A stretch of DNA of 62,474 bases from Bacillota bacterium (lineage in GTDB: Bacteria > Bacillota > Sulfobacillia > Sulfobacillales > JAIMBI01): assembly GCA_021797815.1 (NCBI GenBank), contig JAJZYZ010000011.1, positions 1 through 62,474 of the forward strand, in the 5' to 3' direction. The stretch's first letter is position 1; the number at the start of each line of letters is the position of its first letter. Of this stretch, positions 14,005 through 26,700 are shown piece after piece. The position numbers were made by a program, and so were the translations under genes. The notes beneath the pieces were generated by a model. That model saw nothing but the letters and a program-made list of their open reading frames with translations, was not told the DNA's origin and did no database searches.

Positions 14005-15999
14005 CTACAGGCCCGCAATCTTGAGCCAGATGAGTCCCGCCAGAAGTGCGCCCAACGCATAGCCCACGTAGTGGGAGAGATGGCCCGACTCCGTCTTCTG
14101 GATACGGGCGGTGATACGGTCGATGGCGTTGTAGAAAGGGTGCAGCACATGCACCATCAGGCGGTCCACGGCGTCTGTCTCCACGACGAGGCCGCGGGTC
14201 GGGTGGTCCTGGCGCGTGCGCCGAAGGCTGATTACGGGGGCAAACGCCAGCCGGAGCGGCAGCGTAAGCCCGGTTGCGGACCATAAGTGGGCCGGTTCGC
14301 TTTTAATCGAGCCCACCCACGGCTCCACGCGGCGGGAGACCCCCCGGCCCGTGTGACGCCACCATAGCGCCCGCAGAAGAAACACGATCCCCACGATGCC
14401 CCCGCCGAAGAACAGGAGATACCAGGGCGAGGTGGCCGTAAAGCCGCCGCCGGGAAACGCGATAAGGCCTGGCGCAAAGGGCAGGCCCGCGAAGATGCGC
14501 CCGCCCAGACTGTTAAGGAGCCGCGTCGTGGCGGGGGCGGTGAACACCGGCGCGATCACGGGGGCCGGCCGTTGCCCGAGGATTCTCGGCGCATTGGCCT
14601 CCATCCAGGGAACCCACCACCCGATGCCGATGCCAGATAACCACGCAAGGCACGCACCAGCCGCCACGAGCCCGGTCTCCATGCGGGAGGGCCTCAGCTT
14701 CGGGGGCCGGCGTTCGGGACCCAGGTACAGCATGCCGAACCACCTGAGCATGGCCGTGGCTCCCGCGCCCCCGATGAGGGCCACGGCGATGGCGACCGGT
14801 ATCAGCGCCACCCGCAAGGAGCTCCCGGCCCCGTTGAACAGGCCCTCGAGCGCCGACCATTCGGCGAAGTAGCCGCCGGTGGGCGGGATGGCCATGAGGG
14901 CCACCACGCCCAGGACGAGCCACTTCCCAAGGCTCCCGGAAGAGCGGAAGAGGCCCCCGACACCGAGGAAGCGACGCGTTCCGAGAGCCTTTTCCATCCA
15001 TCCGGACGCCGTGAAGGCCGCCGTCTTGGCACCGAGGTGCATCAGGAGGATGGCGAAGTAGGCGGCCGCGGCCAGCGAGGCCGCCACCACGACGTGCTCG
15101 TGCAAGAAGACGATATACAGGCCGAGAATGCCCATGGCGAGCCCCACCCATTCGATGGTGGAGTAGGCCAGCACTCGCTTGAAGTCGTCGTCGATCATGG
15201 CATGGATGACACCCAGTACCGCACCGCCCAGTCCGACAATCACGAGGCCCCAGGCGACGGTCGTGGGGGCGGGTGCCCAGCCCATCCACTCCCACATGCC
15301 CACCAGGACGACGGTGGAAAGCACACCCGAAAGGATGCCGGCGGCGGCTCCAGGCGCCTCCGGCTCGGCCAGCGGCAGCCACACCTGAAACGGGAAGAGC
15401 CCCGCTTTCGCCCCGAGCCCTATGATGCCGAGGGCGGCTGCCACCGCCATAGAGCCGGCGTCTTGCGGGGGGGCGAGATTGAGGATGACCGCGCCTATGA
15501 GGAGCGCGACGGTGCCGGTCTCGCTCATGACCAGCATGGTCCAGCCCGACGCGACGGTGCGGCGGCGATAGGCCTGACTCACGACCATCACGTATCCACC
15601 GACGGCGATAAGGCCCCAGCCCACCAGGAGCGCGAGCGGACTCCGGGCGAGGAGAAAGAGGGTAACCGCGGAGGTGAGCCAGGTGAGGCCGACCACCATC
15701 CCCCGCCCCGGGCTCCGGGACAGGAGCGCCAGTCCCGAAAGTCCCATCATGAGGAGGCACAGGGCCAGCCAGACCGCCGACCACGGGCTCAACGCGTAGC
15801 GGAGCACCCCCACCGGGAGGACGAGCTGAAGCCGCGACGCCCCCGATGCCAGAGAGACGATGGACAGGCCCACGGGGTACGCAAGCCCGAGCAGGGCCGT
15901 GACCACGCCGGTCCGCGAAAAGCGTCCGGTGGCCGCCAGAACGCTTGTGAGAGCGCTTGCCGCCAAGGTTCCGATGAGGGTCCATGCCACGAGACTCAT
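14005..15999 (-). CDS. Ehr-type complex: antiporter-like membrane subunit (HyfB/NuoL-M-N family)
   Basis: This 664-residue, roughly 16-helix protein belongs to the proton-antiporter family of complex I and group 4 hydrogenases. The core segment GLGAKAGLFPFQVWLPLAE carries the conserved lysine of the broken helix. The pattern continues with a TAAFTASGWMEKALGTRR-like stretch typical of HyfB. The C-terminus extends beyond the family core and ends in one more helix. It is the last gene of the six-gene operon. Its ATG overlaps the TGA of the small-subunit gene (ATGA), so the two are translationally coupled. It presumably translocates protons or sodium ions across the cytoplasmic membrane. Confidence 0.85.
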   Translation of the reverse strand: MSLVAWTLIGTLAASALTSVLAATGRFSRTGVVTALLGLAYPVGLSIVSLASGASRLQLVLPVGVLRYALSPWSAVWLALCLLMMGLSGLALLSRSPGRGMVVGLTWLTSAVTLFLLARSPLALLVGWGLIAVGGYVMVVSQAYRRRTVASGWTMLVMSETGTVALLIGAVILNLAPPQDAGSMAVAAALGIIGLGAKAGLFPFQVWLPLAEPEAPGAAAGILSGVLSTVVLVGMWEWMGWAPAPTTVAWGLVIVGLGGAVLGVIHAMIDDDFKRVLAYSTIEWVGLAMGILGLYIVFLHEHVVVAASLAAAAYFAILLMHLGAKTAAFTASGWMEKALGTRRFLGVGGLFRSSGSLGKWLVLGVVALMAIPPTGGYFAEWSALEGLFNGAGSSLRVALIPVAIAVALIGGAGATAMLRWFGMLYLGPERRPPKLRPSRMETGLVAAGACLAWLSGIGIGWWVPWMEANAPRILGQRPAPVIAPVFTAPATTRLLNSLGGRIFAGLPFAPGLIAFPGGGFTATSPWYLLFFGGGIVGIVFLLRALWWRHTGRGVSRRVEPWVGSIKSEPAHLWSATGLTLPLRLAFAPVISLRRTRQDHPTRGLVVETDAVDRLMVHVLHPFYNAIDRITARIQKTESGHLSHYVGYALGALLAGLIWLKIAGL

Positions 16000-16538
16000 G
16001 TAAGACGCTCCGCCTGTCTCGCAGCCGGCGCCTCCACCACGGCCAGCAGGGTCGCCAGAATGTCGTTGGGGGAGGGCGGACAGCCGAAGACCCGGGCCGC
16101 GACCGGCACCACCTTGCCCAGATCCCCTATCACACCCGGCATCCCCGCGAAATAGTCTTGCTCACCGCCGGCACATCCGCCGATGGCCACGACCAGCTTG
16201 GGCTCGGGCATGGCGTCATAAGTTTCCCGGATGTGGGGCACCATGGCTTCCGTGATGATGCCGGTGACCAGGAGGAGGTCGGCATGTCGGGGCGACGGGG
16301 TAAAGCCGAATCCAAAGCGGCTCCAGTCATACACCGGACTCCCCAGCAGAGAAAGCTCCGACTCGCAGCCGTTGGACGACCCGCCGTCCACGTGACGGAC
16401 GGCGAGTGACCGGCCGAACTGGCGTGTCGTGCGAAGAACCTGGCCGGGGCGGGCCAGAGCCTCGGGGTCGGCCCGGAAGGGATAGGGGCCGACGGCGGGC
16501 CGCCGCACAAAGTGATAGAGCCACCGGGGATACAGCAC
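15996..16538 (-). CDS. Ehr-type complex: small (NuoB/HycG-like) subunit with one cluster ligand missing
   Basis: This 180-residue protein is the electron-transfer small subunit of a group 4-hydrogenase-like complex. The family holds a [4Fe-4S] cluster with four cysteines: CxxC, GxCA and GCPP. Here the first motif reads GSSNGCESE where hydrogenases have GSCNGCxxE, so Ser55 replaces the first cysteine. GGCAGGE and FGCPPSPNDIL keep the other two. I choose the GTG at 16538 because AGGAAGGAG lies 8 bases upstream; the GTG at 16547 would overlap that site. It follows the large-subunit gene by 18 bases. The cluster may be altered or have a non-cysteine ligand. Confidence 0.85.
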   Translation of the reverse strand: MLYPRWLYHFVRRPAVGPYPFRADPEALARPGQVLRTTRQFGRSLAVRHVDGGSSNGCESELSLLGSPVYDWSRFGFGFTPSPRHADLLLVTGIITEAMVPHIRETYDAMPEPKLVVAIGGCAGGEQDYFAGMPGVIGDLGKVVPVAARVFGCPPSPNDILATLLAVVEAPAARQAERLT

Positions 16539-16556
16539 GAGGGGCACTCCTTCCTG

Positions 16557-17921
16557 TTACAGGTCGAGGCCAGCCACTGACAGGCTGAAGCTGGCATCGA
16601 TAATCGGGAAATCCTGCAAGATGTTGTGCGCGGCAAGCGCTACCGGCACGGCCGGCCAGTTGAGAGACGATGGGGTCGCGATGCGCACCCCCGTCACATC
16701 CTGGCCGCGAACCGCCACACGGTAGAACAGCCGGCCTCGAGGAGCCTCGACCAGTCCGAATCCCGTCCCCAGACTTTCGCCGGTTGGAGCCCCCGCCTGC
16801 AATTCGGTCCGGCTGCCCAGGCTTTTTAGCATCTCGAGAGATTGCAGGACCTCTTCAACGCGCACCCGGTATCGCCCGAACGCATCCGGCGACTCCACGA
16901 CCACGGGTCGGAGGTGCGCCGTGAGATCGCTGTACGCGCCGTACGCCCTGCTCCAGCGCAGATCCGAAGATTGCCCGCTGCTCTTTTCCACCACGCCCGT
17001 GACACGGATGCCAAGCCCGGCCCCACCCCGAAGTCTCCCGGCGCCGTGGAGCCGGTCAAGGAACGAGGTGGTGTGGTCAAGCGCCCCGCGCACCAGCCCA
17101 AACTCCCGGCCCGCGTCGTCTGCGAAGGAAGCCAGGCCGAGTGGCGCCAACGCGAGGGGGGTGCCACCCCCCACCGCGATCCGGCCCCTTAGATACCGGT
17201 GACCGAACCGGGCCTGATTGAACCGCAGCACCTTTTCTTTCAAGGCGTACAGATCGGCGGCGGCCGTGATGGTGCCGGTGGCCGCCGAAAGCGCCGCCAG
17301 GTCGCCGAGATGGCTCATGAGTCGTTCCAACTCGGCCAGACATGTGCGCTCCAGGAGTGCGGGCGCGGGCACCACCAAGTGGAGAGCCGCCTCGGCGGCC
17401 ATGGCGTATGCCCAGGCGTGGGCCACGGGAGACGTCCCGGTCACCCGCTCCGCGACCCGGACGCCCCCGTGCACGCCCTGCCGCAGGATGGCCTCTTCCA
17501 TGTGTCGGCGCTTATAGCCGGGCACGATCCGCACATGGTGGATGTCGTCGCCGAACACGGTCAGCACGTATCGGAGTGACTCGGCCACGTCGGCACGCAC
17601 CGGCCCGAGCGGCATCACGTGGATGCCGCGCCCCGAAACCCGGTCGACGGGATACTCGCCGATCCACCAGCCGGCCCGCTCATCGTCCACTTCCAGGGCA
17701 AAGAAACCGAGGACGCCGTACTGGCTCGGGCGGACAAACGGTCCCGGTCCCAGCTCTCGTTCGTGCACGGTGTACTCGCCCGGCCGCCATATCGCGGCGG
17801 TGGGTCCCCGATCACTCCGATAGATATCGAGGATGGCGTGGCCCTCCGCCTGCGCCTCGGCGATTAGAGTCCGAAGCGCATCTTTCGGGGTGACGGCCGC
17901 CACCGAAGATGGATCGCGCAT
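16557..17921 (-). CDS. Ehr-type complex: large subunit (HycE/NuoCD-like) lacking all four nickel-site cysteines
   Basis: This 454-residue protein aligns with the catalytic large subunit of group 4 hydrogenases and NuoD. It has an N-terminal NuoC-like region (about 1-125), then VPGYKRRHMEEAI, ERVTGTSPVAHAWAYAMAAE and a C-terminal ALAAHNILQDFPIIDASFSLS. In hydrogenases the L1 motif is ERICGICSVAH and the C-terminus carries DPCxxC. Here Thr161 and Ser164 replace the first pair, and the C-terminal segment (SFSLS) has no cysteine. A NiFe centre therefore cannot be bound. The frame is intact and motif spacing is preserved, so this is not a decaying pseudogene. Start ATG at 17921 follows AAAGGGAG. 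Confidence 0.88.
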   Translation of the reverse strand: MRDPSSVAAVTPKDALRTLIAEAQAEGHAILDIYRSDRGPTAAIWRPGEYTVHERELGPGPFVRPSQYGVLGFFALEVDDERAGWWIGEYPVDRVSGRGIHVMPLGPVRADVAESLRYVLTVFGDDIHHVRIVPGYKRRHMEEAILRQGVHGGVRVAERVTGTSPVAHAWAYAMAAEAALHLVVPAPALLERTCLAELERLMSHLGDLAALSAATGTITAAADLYALKEKVLRFNQARFGHRYLRGRIAVGGGTPLALAPLGLASFADDAGREFGLVRGALDHTTSFLDRLHGAGRLRGGAGLGIRVTGVVEKSSGQSSDLRWSRAYGAYSDLTAHLRPVVVESPDAFGRYRVRVEEVLQSLEMLKSLGSRTELQAGAPTGESLGTGFGLVEAPRGRLFYRVAVRGQDVTGVRIATPSSLNWPAVPVALAAHNILQDFPIIDASFSLSVAGLDL

Positions 17922-17989
17922 GACAGGCTCCCTTTCTGTCTCGTGTTCCCGCCGCGCTGGCGTCTTTCCGGCCGTCACGCCTGACCCGG

Positions 17990-19366
17990 TCATGCGTGCC
18001 AATGGTAGAGCCAGGGCACGACCAGGCCGGCGCTCGCGGTCAGGATAGTCAGCGTGATCGTGGAAAGGCGCACGGCTGCACTCTCGCCCCGCAGGCCGAC
18101 CGCGGGAAGCTGGCGGCCCGCATCAGCCTGTCCGGGCGCGCGGAGCTGGTACCAGAGGGTCGGAAGCCGGAATGCGAGGGCCAGGAAGCCGGCCGCCAGG
18201 AGAACCGCCACGGCAATCGCGACGGCGCCCTCGCCCGGCGTCTTCAAGCCACCCAGAACCACCAGCCACTCACTCCAGAAGAGGCCGAGCGGCGGCACAC
18301 CGGCCAGTGCCAGCGTCGACACCGCCAGGCCTGCGCTGGTCCAGGGCAGATACCGGTGGAGCTGCCCGATTTCGTCGATGGCCAGGGTCCCGTAGCGGGC
18401 CTGCACATGGCCGGCATGATAGAAGGCCTGCGCCTTTGCGAGGCCGTGCGTGAAGACGTGCAGCAGGGCGCCGAGGCCCGCGAGGCCGCCAAGTCCCAGC
18501 CCAACCGCAATGACGCCCACGTGTTCGATGCTTGAGTAGGCAAGAAGCCGCTTCAGATTCCGCTGACGGGCGATAAGGGCTACACCGACCGCCAGGGACA
18601 GGAGGCCCAGGCCGACCAGGACGCGATGCGGCCACAAGACGTCCAGCTGAGCGGCGGCCTGGTTAACGCCCCCTCTAAGCACGACCAAGATTCCGGCCAG
18701 TTCCGCACCAGACAGGAGCGCCGACACCGGTGCCGGCGCTTCCGCGTGCGCGTCAGGAAGCCATGTGTGCAGGGGCACGAGGCCGGCCTTGGTCCCAAAG
18801 CCGATGATAAGGGCGAGCACCCCCCACTCGACAAAGTCTCGCGCCGGCGACCCCAGGAGCACGATGCCGAAGAGGGCTACGAGACCACCGAATACGGCCA
18901 TGACCACGTACTTCCAAGCGGCCTCGAAGGGTCCCCGGCCCGGCGGCAGGGCCACAAGCGCCACGGACGTCAGCGTGGTGGCCTCGACCGCCACCCACAG
19001 GTCAATCAGCGGCCAGGCCTGTCCGAGGGCCACGAGGGAGGCCACGAAGGCGCCGAGCAGCGCGTAGTAAGCGCGGATCCTGCCGTGCGGCCAGGGGTCG
19101 TGACCGCCCGTCCCCGTGAGATATCCAGGCGAGAGGCCGAAGGCGACCGATGCCAGGACAAGCACGAGCGTCGCGTACTGGTCAGCCCAGTGATGCGCGG
19201 CGATGGCCGAAAGCAGCGCGACCACGCCGCCCAATGCCAGAAGCGCCGACGCCGCGTACGGGGCCCGCCTGGCATCCAGGGCCGCGAGGGCCCCCAGGAG
19301 GACCGGAAAGGCCACCATCAGGGGCGAAAGCCAACTCCATGCCGCGAGGGCGTGCATCAGGTCCAT
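17990..19366 (-). CDS. Ehr-type complex: antiporter-like membrane subunit (HyfF/NuoL-M-N family)
   Basis: This 458-residue protein is the second antiporter-like subunit. It carries the textbook core GFGTKAGLVPLHTWLPDAHAEAPAPVSALLSG with the lysine of helix 7, followed by the HVGVIAVGLGLGG region and a histidine-containing loop (HVFTHGLAKAQAFYHAGHV). About 13-14 membrane helices are visible. The frame opens further upstream, but MDLMHALAAWSW at 19366 is the sensible start. It lies four bases after the stop of the HyfE-like gene with AGGGATG upstream. It should provide an ion channel of the complex. Confidence 0.85.
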   Translation of the reverse strand: MDLMHALAAWSWLSPLMVAFPVLLGALAALDARRAPYAASALLALGGVVALLSAIAAHHWADQYATLVLVLASVAFGLSPGYLTGTGGHDPWPHGRIRAYYALLGAFVASLVALGQAWPLIDLWVAVEATTLTSVALVALPPGRGPFEAAWKYVVMAVFGGLVALFGIVLLGSPARDFVEWGVLALIIGFGTKAGLVPLHTWLPDAHAEAPAPVSALLSGAELAGILVVLRGGVNQAAAQLDVLWPHRVLVGLGLLSLAVGVALIARQRNLKRLLAYSSIEHVGVIAVGLGLGGLAGLGALLHVFTHGLAKAQAFYHAGHVQARYGTLAIDEIGQLHRYLPWTSAGLAVSTLALAGVPPLGLFWSEWLVVLGGLKTPGEGAVAIAVAVLLAAGFLALAFRLPTLWYQLRAPGQADAGRQLPAVGLRGESAAVRLSTITLTILTASAGLVVPWLYHWHA

Positions 19367-19370
19367 ATCG

Positions 19371-20000
19371 TCATCCCTGGAGTTCCTGCAGATCGCGGCT
19401 TGTCGGCACCGGCACGGTGTCCTCGCTGCCCCGCCGATGGAGCCAGGCCAGGAGAACCGCAAGGCCCATGAGCTCCGCTACCGCCAGAAAGTCGCTTAAC
19501 CCGGCCGCATGCCCGGCGGCCACGGCGGCAAACCCGATGACCAGCTCCGCTTCCAGCAGAAGGAGGACCTGCAGCCAGATTTCCCGGCGCTGGGTCAGAA
19601 TCCAAAAGGGCGTCAGGAGGGCGGCCAGAAGGACTCCCGGGGGGCCAAGCGCCCAGGTGACGATAGCCGAAAGCGCGAGGGAACCGCCAATCAATCTGGG
19701 GGTGCCCCTCGCCTCGGCCCCATAGGCGCTGGCGGGAAGTCCGGCCCGCAGCACCGCGGGCACCCATGCGATCTTCACAAGCGCCCACACGGCCCCCAGC
19801 ACAATGAAACCCGTCTCGTGAAATCGGTGGCCGGCGTATATGGCTACGGCGGCCTCCACGGCGCTTATCATGCGATACCAGCCGATGCCGGTCCGCGGTG
19901 TGCGGGTCACGCCGAGAAGATTGACCATGAGCCACGAAAGCCCCGCACCTGTAATCCCGAGGAGCATGGGGCTTCCGAACGCCGCATGCATCACCGGCAC
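19371..20000 (-). CDS. Ehr-type complex: small membrane subunit (HyfE/NuoK-like)
   Basis: This protein of about 205-209 residues has six or seven hydrophobic helices and matches the HyfE type, whose C-terminal part corresponds to NuoK of complex I. A glutamate within a hydrophobic stretch (LLLLEAELVIGFAAVAAG) fits the conserved ion-path acid residue of NuoK-like proteins. The start is uncertain. AAGGAGG sits 3 bases before the GTG at 20000, 9 bases before a GTG at 19994 and 12 before the ATG at 19991, so 19994 has the best spacing. It is second in the operon, between the NuoH-like and HyfF-like genes. Confidence 0.78.
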   Translation of the reverse strand: MPVMHAAFGSPMLLGITGAGLSWLMVNLLGVTRTPRTGIGWYRMISAVEAAVAIYAGHRFHETGFIVLGAVWALVKIAWVPAVLRAGLPASAYGAEARGTPRLIGGSLALSAIVTWALGPPGVLLAALLTPFWILTQRREIWLQVLLLLEAELVIGFAAVAAGHAAGLSDFLAVAELMGLAVLLAWLHRRGSEDTVPVPTSRDLQELQG

Positions 20001-20057
20001 CAGCCTCCTTTTTGGAGCCGTCTCAATCTGTTGGCATCCACACGTCGCTGCCGGTTC

Positions 20058-20990
20058 TTACAACCCCACGGCCACCGCCGCCAGGGCGGCCAGGGCGACG
20101 GCAAATGTGAGGTACTCGGATATGCGCATGAGTCGAAGCTTGGCGAACGATAACTCGACTAGAACCACCAGGGTGCCCACAAGCAACAGCTTCAGCGCCG
20201 ACACGGCGATGGCGCCGGCCAGAGTGGGGACGGTCAAACTGGCCGCCAGGCCGTAGGGCGAGGCCAGCACGTTCACCAGGATGAGGCTCAACACGGTGAG
20301 CTTCATAAAGCCCCCCCACTCATACAGGGCGAGGTCCACGCCGCTCGATTCAAACGTCCGGTTCGGATCGATGAGAGAGAACTCGTGAGCCGAATCAGGG
20401 TTGTCAACCGGCAGGCGGCCTCCTTCCGTCAGGATGAGGAGAAACCACGCCGTCAGCAGCAGTACGTGAGCGGGAGCAAAGAAACTGTGAGCGGCCATCG
20501 CCTGGTTCACGACGTAGGGAATCGTCGAGTGGCCAATAGCCGCGGCCGTGAACAGAGCCATCAGCACCAGCGGCTCCCCGAGGGTTCCGATGAGGCGCAT
20601 CCGGCTCACGCCGATGGCGGTGTAGGGACTCCCGCTGTCAAGGGCCGCCCAGAGAAGAAGAAGTCCGCCGCCGGCCAGAATCATGCCGCCGCCCAGCATG
20701 TCCGCCATGAAGGCCAGCGGAAGGGGAAAGGTGGTGAGCACCGGGATGAGCAGGGTGACGATGATGGGGGCACAGAAGTACAGGACCGGGACCACCCCGC
20801 TGAAGCCGGTGGTGTGCACGGTCCGCACGGTTTCCTTGTGCAGCCACTTGCCCAGATGGCGGTACGGCTGGAGGAGAGGCGGCCCCACCCGCCGCATCCC
20901 CCGTGCCTTCAGGCGGTCCATGAACCCTTTCAGAAGCGGGGAGAAGGCCAGAACAAACAGGACCTGCAGCATCTGTGCGACTATCGGCAT
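20058..20990 (-). CDS. Ehr-type complex: NuoH/HyfC-like membrane subunit
   Basis: This 310-residue, eight-helix protein is the NuoH-type subunit that joins the hydrophilic arm to the membrane arm. Characteristic segments are PPLLQPYRHLGKWLHKE after helix 1, SGSPYTAIGVSRMRL in the central loop, and EGGRLPVDNPDSAHEFSLIDP, the acidic loop facing the quinone or active-site cavity. These loops are well conserved although the large subunit has lost its metal site, which argues that the complex still works. It is the first gene of the operon, with its start about 134 bases downstream of the predicted transcription start. Confidence 0.87.
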   Translation of the reverse strand: MPIVAQMLQVLFVLAFSPLLKGFMDRLKARGMRRVGPPLLQPYRHLGKWLHKETVRTVHTTGFSGVVPVLYFCAPIIVTLLIPVLTTFPLPLAFMADMLGGGMILAGGGLLLLWAALDSGSPYTAIGVSRMRLIGTLGEPLVLMALFTAAAIGHSTIPYVVNQAMAAHSFFAPAHVLLLTAWFLLILTEGGRLPVDNPDSAHEFSLIDPNRTFESSGVDLALYEWGGFMKLTVLSLILVNVLASPYGLAASLTVPTLAGAIAVSALKLLLVGTLVVLVELSFAKLRLMRISEYLTFAVALAALAAVAVGL

Positions 20991-21114
20991 CGGATGTCCT
21001 CCCTGCCCTCGGATCTGCCCATAAAAAATGGCTCCCCCGCCCCGTGGGTACGGTAGGAGTCATCAGCCTTGCGGCGGTTCGGGCCGGGGCCCGGGCGGTC
21101 TCCATCGCCCTATG

Positions 21115-21129
21115 ACACGCACAGTGTGT
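21115..21129. promoter_or_regulatory. Short dyad at the predicted transcription start of the Ehr operon
   Basis: ACACGC-aca-GTGTGT is an inverted repeat with five of six matching arm positions. It overlaps the expected +1 of the minus-strand promoter at 21131-21159. A repressor bound here would block initiation. No regulator gene is adjacent, so this is a candidate site only. Confidence 0.4.
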
Positions 21130-21130
21130 A

Positions 21131-21159
21131 ATTTTAGCGATCTCGCGCGGGCGCGTCAA
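21131..21159 (-). promoter_or_regulatory. Sigma-A/70-type promoter for the Ehr operon
   Basis: On the minus strand TTGACG is followed after exactly 17 bases by TAAAAT. That is five of six matches to TTGACA and five of six to TATAAT, at ideal spacing. It points toward the six-gene operon whose first start is at 20990. The AT-rich -10 stands out from the GC-rich surroundings. Confidence 0.75.
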
Positions 21160-24417: not shown

Positions 24418-24500
24418 GGGACTCGAGGCGGAAGTCCGGCACTCGCTTTTCGGCCGGCTTCGCGTCCATCGACAAGCCGGAGTAGACTGGACGAGAAGAC

Positions 24501-24550
24501 GGCCATGGAGCCGGCCACAACTGCGCCGCACGACGCTGATGGCTCCTACC
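24501..24550 (+). ncRNA. Fluoride riboswitch aptamer (crcB motif)
   Basis: The stem-loop GGCC-ATGGAGCC-GGCC (24501-24516) is followed by ACAACTGCG, a short helix GCG/CGC (24523-24525 with 24534-24536) and then TGATGGCTCCTACC (24537-24550). This order matches the crcB RNA motif: a GGCG-AUGGAGUU-CGCC-type loop, an A-rich joiner, a short P3 and UGAUGxCUCCUACC. GGAGCC at 24507-24512 is exactly complementary to GGCTCC at 24541-24546. The latter is also the 5' arm of the terminator that follows, giving the mutually exclusive pairing expected of an ON switch. It directly precedes the gene at 24597. Known crcB RNAs bind fluoride; fluoride response here is inferred from the motif. Confidence 0.88.
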
Positions 24551-24572
24551 GGTTAAGGTAGGGGCCTTCTTC
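24541..24572 (+). terminator. Riboswitch expression platform: intrinsic terminator
   Basis: GGCTCCTACC (24541-24550), loop GGTTAA, and GGTAGGGGCC (24557-24566) form a 10-bp stem with one T-G wobble. TTCTTCGT follows as a poor U-tract. The 5' arm shares GGCTCC with the aptamer, so ligand binding would prevent terminator formation and allow read-through into 24597. Confidence 0.8.
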
Positions 24573-24596
24573 GTGCCTACCGGGAGGTGAGAGCCC

Positions 24597-25517
24597 GTGC
24601 GCAGGGAGATGGTGCGGAGTCTATGCGAAGAGCTTGCCGACGCACGAGGCTCGGTAACGCGCCGCTCCTCCATCGCCTGGGTCATCGGACACGCGAACGA
24701 GGAGGAGGCGCTTCCGGGCCTCTTTCAAGTCGCCGACAGTGAAGAGGCCCCCACCGGGCTCCGGGAGGTGGCGGCCTACGCCTGGTGGCGGCTTGGTCTC
24801 GCCCGCGACGGTGCGCAGTCGCGAAGAGCTTCGGCACGGTGGCCGGAGGTGGTGCTCCTTCCCACGCTGGCGGCCCTCCTGGACGAGGCTATGGCCGGGC
24901 CGCAGCATCAGTGGACTCGGGCCGTGATGGAGGCGCGGCCAGAAATGTGGGTGCCAGCGTTTATGCTCGGGGACTACCCGGAGGAATGGGTGCCCTGGAT
25001 ATTTGTAGGTGTCGAGGAAATGAGGACACTCGGGCTTTCGGATCCGGCGTTAATGGACGTGAGGCGTCTGACGGCCCTCGGGGAGGATTGGGCAGCCCAT
25101 CCCCCCAGCACGTTTTTCGGCTCCCGGGCGCTCCGAGACGCTTATAAATGGACCGAGGCCGCCCTCCGCCTGCGGGTGGCCCAGATGCGGTACCAGAACC
25201 TTCGCCACTGGGAAGCGTTTCTACGGGAGGCTCTGACAGAGCCTCCGGGGTCGGAACTTCCCCCGCCAGACGCCCTGCCGGTTCCCCTGCCGAAAGCCCG
25301 GCCGCAGGCCGAGGCCACGACTCTTCTCCTTCTCGGAGCACTCCGCGCCAGCGGGCATGAGAACGACCCGGTCGGGATGTCGGCCAAGCTCAGCGCGGCC
25401 GCGGCCGGGATGCACATCACCATGTCCCAGGTGTATGAGAACGCGCACAAGACCGCTTGGCATGTGGCCGGGCTGACTGGAAGGCTGGAGCTTCGACTCT
25501 TGGGATCCGGAGCGTGA
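24597..25517 (+). CDS. Unknown protein downstream of the fluoride riboswitch
   Basis: I do not recognise this 306-residue soluble protein. The N-terminal third (SIAWVIGHANEEEALPGLF, then GLREVAAYAWWRLGL) reads like HEAT-type helical repeats. The middle has a WVPWIFVGVEEM stretch, and residues about 215-240 form a proline-rich linker before a helical C-terminus. No signal peptide or membrane helix is present, so it is neither a Fluc/CrcB channel nor a CLC-F antiporter. The GTG start has GGGAGGTGA eight bases upstream. It is the first gene behind the riboswitch and is followed after 37 bases by the DUF1537 kinase. A role in fluoride response or in a fluoride-sensitive step is inferred from position only. 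Confidence 0.65.
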   Translation: MRREMVRSLCEELADARGSVTRRSSIAWVIGHANEEEALPGLFQVADSEEAPTGLREVAAYAWWRLGLARDGAQSRRASARWPEVVLLPTLAALLDEAMAGPQHQWTRAVMEARPEMWVPAFMLGDYPEEWVPWIFVGVEEMRTLGLSDPALMDVRRLTALGEDWAAHPPSTFFGSRALRDAYKWTEAALRLRVAQMRYQNLRHWEAFLREALTEPPGSELPPPDALPVPLPKARPQAEATTLLLLGALRASGHENDPVGMSAKLSAAAAGMHITMSQVYENAHKTAWHVAGLTGRLELRLLGSGA

Positions 25518-25554
25518 CGGGCCGTCCTGGCGGGACTTGTGCCATCATAGCCTT

Positions 25555-26700
25555 ATGACTGCTGACCAGGAGGAGCCCCTCTCCCGCATTGTTGTCCTGG
25601 CGGACGACCTGTCGGGCGCCCTCGCGTCGGCCGCGAGCCTCGCGGAACATTTCGGGGAACGGGTGCCGGTGGTGGAGGAACTTTCGCATCCTGTCCCCGC
25701 GCGCCTGGCCGTCAATACACGCGCGCGGGCAGAGGGCGTGCGTCCCGAGTGGATCCGGCAAGCGACAGCGGCGGTCTGGGAGAGCGGTACCCGTCTCTTT
25801 GACAAGCGGATTGACTCGACCCTTCGGGGACCGGTGGCCGAGGAGCTTCTCATCCTGGTCGCGAGTATGCCGATAGCTCCCATTGTGATTGCCGTTCCGG
25901 CCTATCCGGGTGCGGGCCGGACTACCCGAGGAGGGCAGCAGTGGCGGCACGGGACGCCGGTGGGCCGTGTGGCCGAGGCGATGGGAGCCGATGCGGTCGC
26001 CCGGCAGATCGGCGGCACGGTGGTTGAGAGCGCCGTGCGGACACGGGACGACATCTTTCAGGCCCACAATCCCGGGCCCTACGTGATGGACGTGCGACAC
26101 CGCCCCGACCTCCAGACGGTCGCGGACACCGTCAACCGACTACGGAGGACCGCTTCACGGCCGATCGTCCTTGTCTCTTCCGGGGAGCTCCTGCGGTACG
26201 TTCCGAGGCTCCCCCCACGGCCCCTGGTGGTCGTGTGGGGCAGCGGATCCCCGGAGAATGAACGCCAGCTCCGCCATCTGCTCCGTGCGTCAGAAGCCGT
26301 CGTGGTACCGCTGTGGGATACGCCGGACCCTTCAATAACCGGACGCGTGCGGGTCCTTAAAAGCCGCGGAGTTGTAAAGACTCCGGGACCCGCTACCGAC
26401 ACCGCCATGGCCCGTCGCGTGCTTGAGCACCTGCACCTATGGGAGGCGCAGGGGTTCAGGCCCAAGCGCCTCGTGATAAGCGGCGGCGATACCGCGCAGG
26501 CCGTTTTCCGGGAGTCAGGGGCCGAGGGCGTGCTGGCGCTTTACAATCCGGCCCCGCTGGTGGGCGCGGGCGTCATTCAGGGCGGGGTCCTGCACGGGTT
26601 GGAGCTCATCACGAAAGGCGGTAAGGTGGGATCGCCCGACATCCTGCTGGACCTGGTGGAACGGGGCCTAGAGACCCCATCCTGCCCACGGGGGGAGTAG
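25555..26700 (+). CDS. Four-carbon acid sugar kinase family protein (DUF1537)
   Basis: This 381-residue protein is a DUF1537-type kinase. It has the N-terminal substrate-binding motif LADDLSGA, the KRIDSTLRGP segment, VAVPAYPGAGRTT, and the C-terminal nucleotide-binding part with LVISGGDTAQAV and GGVLHG. Family members phosphorylate D-threonate, D-erythronate, L-threonate or related acids at O4. The next gene encodes the matching PdxA2-type dehydrogenase, which is the known two-step partner. I start at ATG 25555. No good ribosome binding site precedes it, so translation may be coupled to the upstream gene or leaderless. Confidence 0.85.
   Translation: MTADQEEPLSRIVVLADDLSGALASAASLAEHFGERVPVVEELSHPVPARLAVNTRARAEGVRPEWIRQATAAVWESGTRLFDKRIDSTLRGPVAEELLILVASMPIAPIVIAVPAYPGAGRTTRGGQQWRHGTPVGRVAEAMGADAVARQIGGTVVESAVRTRDDIFQAHNPGPYVMDVRHRPDLQTVADTVNRLRRTASRPIVLVSSGELLRYVPRLPPRPLVVVWGSGSPENERQLRHLLRASEAVVVPLWDTPDPSITGRVRVLKSRGVVKTPGPATDTAMARRVLEHLHLWEAQGFRPKRLVISGGDTAQAVFRESGAEGVLALYNPAPLVGAGVIQGGVLHGLELITKGGKVGSPDILLDLVERGLETPSCPRGE

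Follow-up and report, generated by a model that had tools for sequence, protein, structure and literature searches.

The window analysed here, a stretch of 62,474 nucleotides, is contig JAJZYZ010000011.1 (C95 of 142 contigs) of a Bacillota bacterium from the order Sulfobacillales (assembly GCA_021797815.1), a metagenome-assembled genome of 2.9 Mb that is 97.75% complete. An intact six-gene operon occupies positions 14005-20990 on the minus strand, in the order H-E-F-L-S-B. It encodes a membrane complex of the type termed energy-converting-hydrogenase-related (Ehr), with homology to group 4 hydrogenases and respiratory complex I, and a fluoride riboswitch lies in front of it. The genes overlap or are closely spaced, each of the six reading frames is open across the coordinates given in Table 1, and the operon is flanked by unrelated genes. 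The Pfam matches of H, F, B, L and S all lie above the family cut-offs; E gave no match in the Pfam search and was assigned by profile comparison (hhalign) instead. Pfam, hhalign and the open frames agree with each other and uphold the original prediction of a complete six-subunit group 4/complex I core in one operon. The longest open reading frame of F starts at 19462, the likely start being the ATG at 19366; alternative starts of L are found at 17993 or 18002. Between the window species and G001, a second species of its genus (dS about 0.7-0.9), the ratio of nonsynonymous to synonymous substitution rates (dN/dS) is 0.07-0.21 for all six genes, which indicates that all six are under purifying selection.

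Table 1. Features of the operon, its leader and the second riboswitch in the window, and DUF190 genes at other loci
Feature	Position	Strand	Evidence or remark
H, NuoH/HyfC-like membrane anchor, 310 aa	20058..20990	-	Pfam NADHdh, 78.8 bits; GGGAGGA before ATG
E, HyfE-like membrane subunit, 209 aa	19371..20000	-	hhalign probability 96.7% to HyfE-type proteins
F, HyfF-like antiporter subunit	17990..19366	-	Pfam Proton_antipo_M, 140 bits
L, NuoCD/HycE-like large subunit without nickel ligands	16557..17921	-	Pfam Complex1_49kDa, 62 bits
S, NuoB-like small subunit	15996..16547	-	Pfam Oxidored_q6, 74 bits; motif table
B, HyfB/NuoL-like antiporter subunit, 664 aa	14005..15999	-	Pfam Proton_antipo_M, 76 bits
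Fluoride riboswitch aptamer (RF01734)	21047..21118	-	Rfam 49.4 bits, gathering score 34, E 1.1e-10
Promoter-like site TTGACG-17-TAAAAT	21131..21159	-	Consensus scan, 10/12 matches, 0.2 expected in shuffles
Candidate terminator hairpin, then six T	21023..21064	-	Sequence and RNA fold; overlaps aptamer 3' end
Second fluoride riboswitch	24492..24555	+	38.6 bits; 3.4 kb away; before gene at 24597; kept in sister species
306-aa protein, no Pfam match	24597..25517	+	Behind second riboswitch; homologue behind same riboswitch in G001
DUF190 loci	L045 11854, L046 12987, L048 12638, L078 12583, L080 14281, L095 3559, L096 3356		

The riboswitch in front of the operon, which the original prediction had missed, is the strongest clue to function. 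Its aptamer ends 57 bases before the ATG of H, the first gene, on the same strand. The leader runs from the promoter-like site, a candidate by consensus match only, through the aptamer and the overlapping hairpin with its six T to GGGAGGA and the ATG. This layout is that of a transcriptional ON switch, the ON direction being what we infer from the arrangement. Judged from the leader and its conservation described below, the operon is almost certainly under fluoride regulation.

For comparison a set of 61 related genomes was used, in which operons orthologous to that of the window are called A-type. Of the 36 A-type operons, 33 have a same-strand riboswitch 3.0-3.5 kb ahead of L; at the three others (G004:C155, G011:C1, G034:C121) the expected position is beyond the contig end, hence the linkage is 33/33 where the leader is on the contig. 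In four A-type operons the leader reaches 32-33 bits and so falls just short of the Rfam cut-off, yet it is correctly placed. The sister type, B-type, has the riboswitch before 12 of 13 operons, the exception being a tandem copy directly behind the A operon in G001 (L037 4600-19644), where the A-type operon is followed by a B-type operon that has no detected riboswitch of its own. The B-type operon does not occur in the window genome. No riboswitch was found before C-type and four-cysteine relatives (0/17) or before NuoD-like genes (0/35). Altogether 45 of the 130 riboswitch matches lead an Ehr operon, and in each of three genomes (G003, G005, G006) both riboswitches do so.

In a maximum-likelihood tree all sampled L proteins linked to a riboswitch form one clade (SH-aLRT 99). 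This clade spans Bacillota, Actinomycetota and Betaproteobacteria and includes Mycobacterium branderi, Burkholderia cenocepacia and Caballeronia plasmids, with few loci outside the order of the window (five plasmids and two genomes of the same class, G057 and G424). Burkholderia multivorans, picked by sequence alone as a test of prediction, carries the riboswitch before the operon, and none precedes the Ehr operons of Cupriavidus, Azospirillum, Methylocalor and Allomeiothermus, which fall outside the clade. Among 39 genomes with group-4-like large subunits sampled across the phylum, a riboswitch about 3.2 kb upstream was found only in G424. By these counts the linkage of the riboswitch to this operon type is near-universal and clade-specific. 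Moreover, inorganic pyrophosphatase, CrcB, a CLC-type channel, enolase and DUF190 are encoded next to the Burkholderia and Mycobacterium operons; pyrophosphatase, exporters and enolase are fluoride-response genes according to a review (PMC11139923). A role of the complex in defence against fluoride and hydrogen fluoride (HF) is, from this genomic context, very probable.

DUF190 (PII-like) genes recur next to fluoride-switched Ehr operons in several phyla (Table 1), and none adjoins the window operon. On a plasmid of Alicyclobacillus sp. ALC3 from acid mine drainage (L133 6546-8248), a solitary large-subunit gene stands behind a fluoride riboswitch with no membrane partners nearby, on an island that also encodes CrcB, DUF190 and a MutS-like protein.

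The large subunit L carries ERVTGTSPVAH, its C-terminal motif DASFSLSVAGLDL is free of cysteine, and the four nickel positions are T,S,S,G as compared to C,C,C,C in E. coli HycE and HyfG. None of the 36 A-type orthologues has any nickel cysteine, which excludes a sequencing error; a pseudogene is likewise ruled out by the second species and the dN/dS values. The only other Complex1_49kDa gene of the genome is NuoD of complex I, so that the genome contains no second hydrogenase large subunit that could partner these membrane subunits. A maximum-likelihood tree of L groups all nickel-free Ehr proteins (support 92) apart from NuoD and the hydrogenases. Thus both the missing nickel cysteines and the placement among Ehr complexes, as originally proposed, are confirmed, and a Sulfobacillus case has been published (PMC4378227). 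The quinone-site His and Tyr of the 49 kDa subunit are absent from L in an alignment with NuoD. The AlphaFold model of L is poor (pLDDT 61) and that of S fair (pLDDT 71). Sulfobacillus-like genomes also contain a C-type complex with the nickel site C,D,C,C (L053, L054, L055, L075, L076, L077), which has no fluoride riboswitch and in some cases an ArsR-type regulator upstream. In G052 a c-di-AMP riboswitch (L056 2795-2918) precedes a related operon with all four nickel cysteines in its large subunit.

Formate hydrogenlyase (FHL) is listed behind fluoride riboswitches (Weinberg 2010, PMC2864571; 2024 review, PMC11139923), the review explaining its place in the fluoride regulon by formate oxidation. 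The best PDB match by sequence, FHL subunit 5, agrees with that label. However, among the riboswitch-linked types 54 of the 55 large subunits lack nickel ligands, the other one (M. branderi) having a single cysteine, and the window operon lacks a formate dehydrogenase, HycB/HycF and a maturation protease; that no ferredoxin-like or maturation gene lies nearby had been noted correctly before. Nor is a formate dehydrogenase found beside the annotated relatives of the operon. Having neither nickel ligands nor a formate dehydrogenase arm, the cases examined cannot be formate hydrogenlyases, and that the window complex acts as an FHL or a hydrogenase is hardly credible. The FHL/Hyf-like operons behind the riboswitch and the window operon probably comprise the same genes, differently named: all cases of 'formate hydrogen lyase' inspected here belong by sequence to the nickel-free clade, and the Baker 2012 cases, the source of the review, likely do so as well. 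Compared to E. coli Hyf (hydrogenase-4) and Hyc (FHL-1), the six core subunits are homologous to Hyf B, C, E, F, G and I, whereas HyfA, HyfD, HyfH, the nickel ligands, the maturation protease and FdhF are missing.

In the small subunit S the cluster positions are Ser58, Cys61, Cys125 and Cys156. The first cysteine is replaced by serine (SSNGC) in both the window species and G001, whose S proteins are 88% identical (dN/dS of S 0.11); the remaining 34 of 36 A-type small subunits keep all four. No plausible iron-sulfur (Fe-S) motif was found in the other subunits of the window complex, the three cysteines in the longest reading frame of F being upstream of its likely start. On this motif evidence the window complex has room for at most one Fe-S cluster. 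Cluster ligands were lost more than once, as seen from the window genus, M. branderi and Allomeiothermus (all four cysteines lost in both, the former within the clade and with its fused ferredoxin-like domain retained, the latter outside it) and a Streptomyces plasmid (Arg at the first position). On the Allomeiothermus silvanus plasmid pMESIL01 the nickel-free Ehr operon is present in two copies (L081, L131), both without proximal-cluster cysteines, with an ArsR-type regulator upstream and with no fluoride riboswitch.

These findings bear on whether the complex is a redox-driven proton pump. In such a pump, a ferredoxin-like soluble donor would dock at the position of HycF/NuoI and reduce the single proximal cluster; electrons would then go to an acceptor in the L/S/H cavity, with proton export under fluoride stress. 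The four cysteines kept by 34 of 36 A-type small subunits fit this scheme, as does the ferredoxin-like domain fused to the small subunits of B-type, Burkholderia-type and Mycobacterium operons. By contrast, none of the 36 A-type small subunits has an electron-input domain, neighbour clustering gave no conserved redox partner beside the operon, the quinone-site residues are gone, and the cluster has lost its first ligand in the window genus and all four in M. branderi. The earlier claim that another redox partner drives the pump was not borne out, since at most one cluster is possible and that cluster lacks one ligand. A redox pump is possible, albeit on the unlikely side.

The three-cysteine cluster also makes an MBS-type sulfur reductase attractive, in which the open iron would reduce sulfane sulfur or a similar substrate. 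In MBS of Pyrococcus three cysteines hold the proximal cluster, the same first cysteine being non-coordinating, and MbsJ C25A is active (PMC7684303). Further common features are the complex-I-like architecture, the lost nickel site and the missing quinone residues. However, the MBS loop has three residues fewer, and that of the window aligns gap-free to MBH with only Cys exchanged for Ser, so the ligand was lost by substitution and not by loop shortening. In addition, the window operon has neither an MbsN-like, ferredoxin-like electron-input subunit nor Mrp-type small subunits, MbsL keeps two of the four nickel cysteines as compared to none in the window L, and the fluoride switch would be left unexplained. 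With loop length, subunits and fluoride linkage all against it, this candidate was rejected as improbable.

The ion-translocating membrane arm is, by its residues, largely intact. F has the Glu of transmembrane helix (TM) 5, the Lys of TM7 and TM8 and the Glu of TM12, and H has kept its conserved loop. In B both Lys and the TM12 Glu are kept, but the TM5 Glu is Gly in the window genus and the sister genus. The original statement that the ion-channel residues are intact thus holds for the TM7 and TM8 lysines and the TM12 Glu, and fails for TM5 of B. This loss and that of the cluster cysteine would suit a decaying relic; open frames, the dN/dS values in all six genes and the conserved regulatory leader largely refute decay, which is very improbable.

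Another explanation is a non-redox transporter that would be powered by an ion gradient already in place and would expel F-, HF or protons, with the peripheral arm as a structural or fluoride-sensing gate. It is favoured by the fact that nickel ligands, quinone-site residues and cluster ligands were lost step by step under strong purifying selection elsewhere. Neither CrcB nor CLC exporters were detected in the window genome, and CrcB is absent from all seven genomes of the family, which leaves room for a direct export role; in G003, G005 and G006 all riboswitches detected stand before Ehr operons. Against it, the four cluster cysteines kept by most clade members are hard to explain without a redox or structural need. 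A non-redox transporter is likewise possible, though doubtful.

We propose, with slightly better than even confidence, that the complex, here named F-Ehr, is a fluoride-induced, ion-translocating Ehr complex in the defence against HF and fluoride. Fluoride would enter as HF and be bound by the leader aptamer; with fluoride bound, the overlapping terminator would not form and the six genes would be expressed. The membrane arm would then move protons, possibly against Na+ or F-, and so counter the acid and fluoride load from HF. The former catalytic arm, with one Fe-S cluster at most, would serve for coupling or gating and would not be a hydrogenase. The entry of HF makes the cytosol acidic, and the export of fluoride draws on the proton-motive force (PMC11139923), so that the complex would most naturally contribute by translocating protons or ions. 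That this is its contribution we hold to be a little more probable than the opposite, and we give about the same odds to a drive by electrons and a drive by a gradient.

Several points weigh against this proposal. The terminator is a candidate only, its fold being modestly better than shuffles (z -1.6) and not flagged by a pattern scan. Given the lost TM5 Glu of B, one antiporter-like channel out of two might be impaired. Six relatives carry CLC genes and most Sulfobacillaceae-like relatives carry CrcB, and the missing CrcB and CLC of the window genome may be an assembly gap, as absence from a fragmented metagenome assembly is no proof.

The genome has two detected fluoride riboswitches, both within the window. 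The 306-aa protein behind the second one is preceded by the riboswitch in the sister species too and may therefore belong to the fluoride response as a new protein; it is followed by a DUF1537-type kinase and PdxA (24492-26700).

Sulfobacillus gene clusters without nickel motifs have been reported as Ehr of unknown function (Justice et al. 2014, PMC4378227). They share with the window operon the six-gene core, the group 4/complex I homology, the missing nickel motifs and the lack of an assigned function; the window clade differs by its position behind a fluoride riboswitch, the order H-E-F-L-S-B and, in the window genus, the loss of one cluster cysteine. Thus Ehr in Sulfobacillus is already known, and it is the fluoride-riboswitch linkage of the clade that is found here from genome comparison. 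A search of the open literature for Ehr or hydrogenase joined with fluoride riboswitches found nothing relevant. With respiratory complex I the window complex has the H, L, S and antiporter-like folds in common, whereas it lacks the NADH and NuoI modules and the quinone His/Tyr, and its cluster motif is of the CxxC type and not tandem-Cys. CrcB/Fluc and CLC-F are likewise under fluoride-riboswitch control, but the proteins are unrelated. Tentatively, F-Ehr might be a further fluoride-resistance machine beside Fluc/CrcB and CLC-F, whose ion channels drive out fluoride or HF-borne protons and which no longer carries out hydrogen or quinone chemistry. On this tentative reading, F-Ehr would be the sole riboswitch-controlled membrane transport system of the window organism against fluoride.

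The data indicate that the unexplained Ehr function and the puzzling FHL of the fluoride regulon concern, in all cases examined, the same nickel-free clade. This gives the riboswitch-linked Ehr branch a testable physiological role and corrects the annotation underlying the metabolic explanation in the recent review (PMC11139923). That nickel and cluster ligands were lost repeatedly provides a natural series for the dependence of complex-I-type coupling on redox chemistry. Many of the relatives are Sulfobacillus-like acidophiles, whose bioleaching is limited by HF toxicity.

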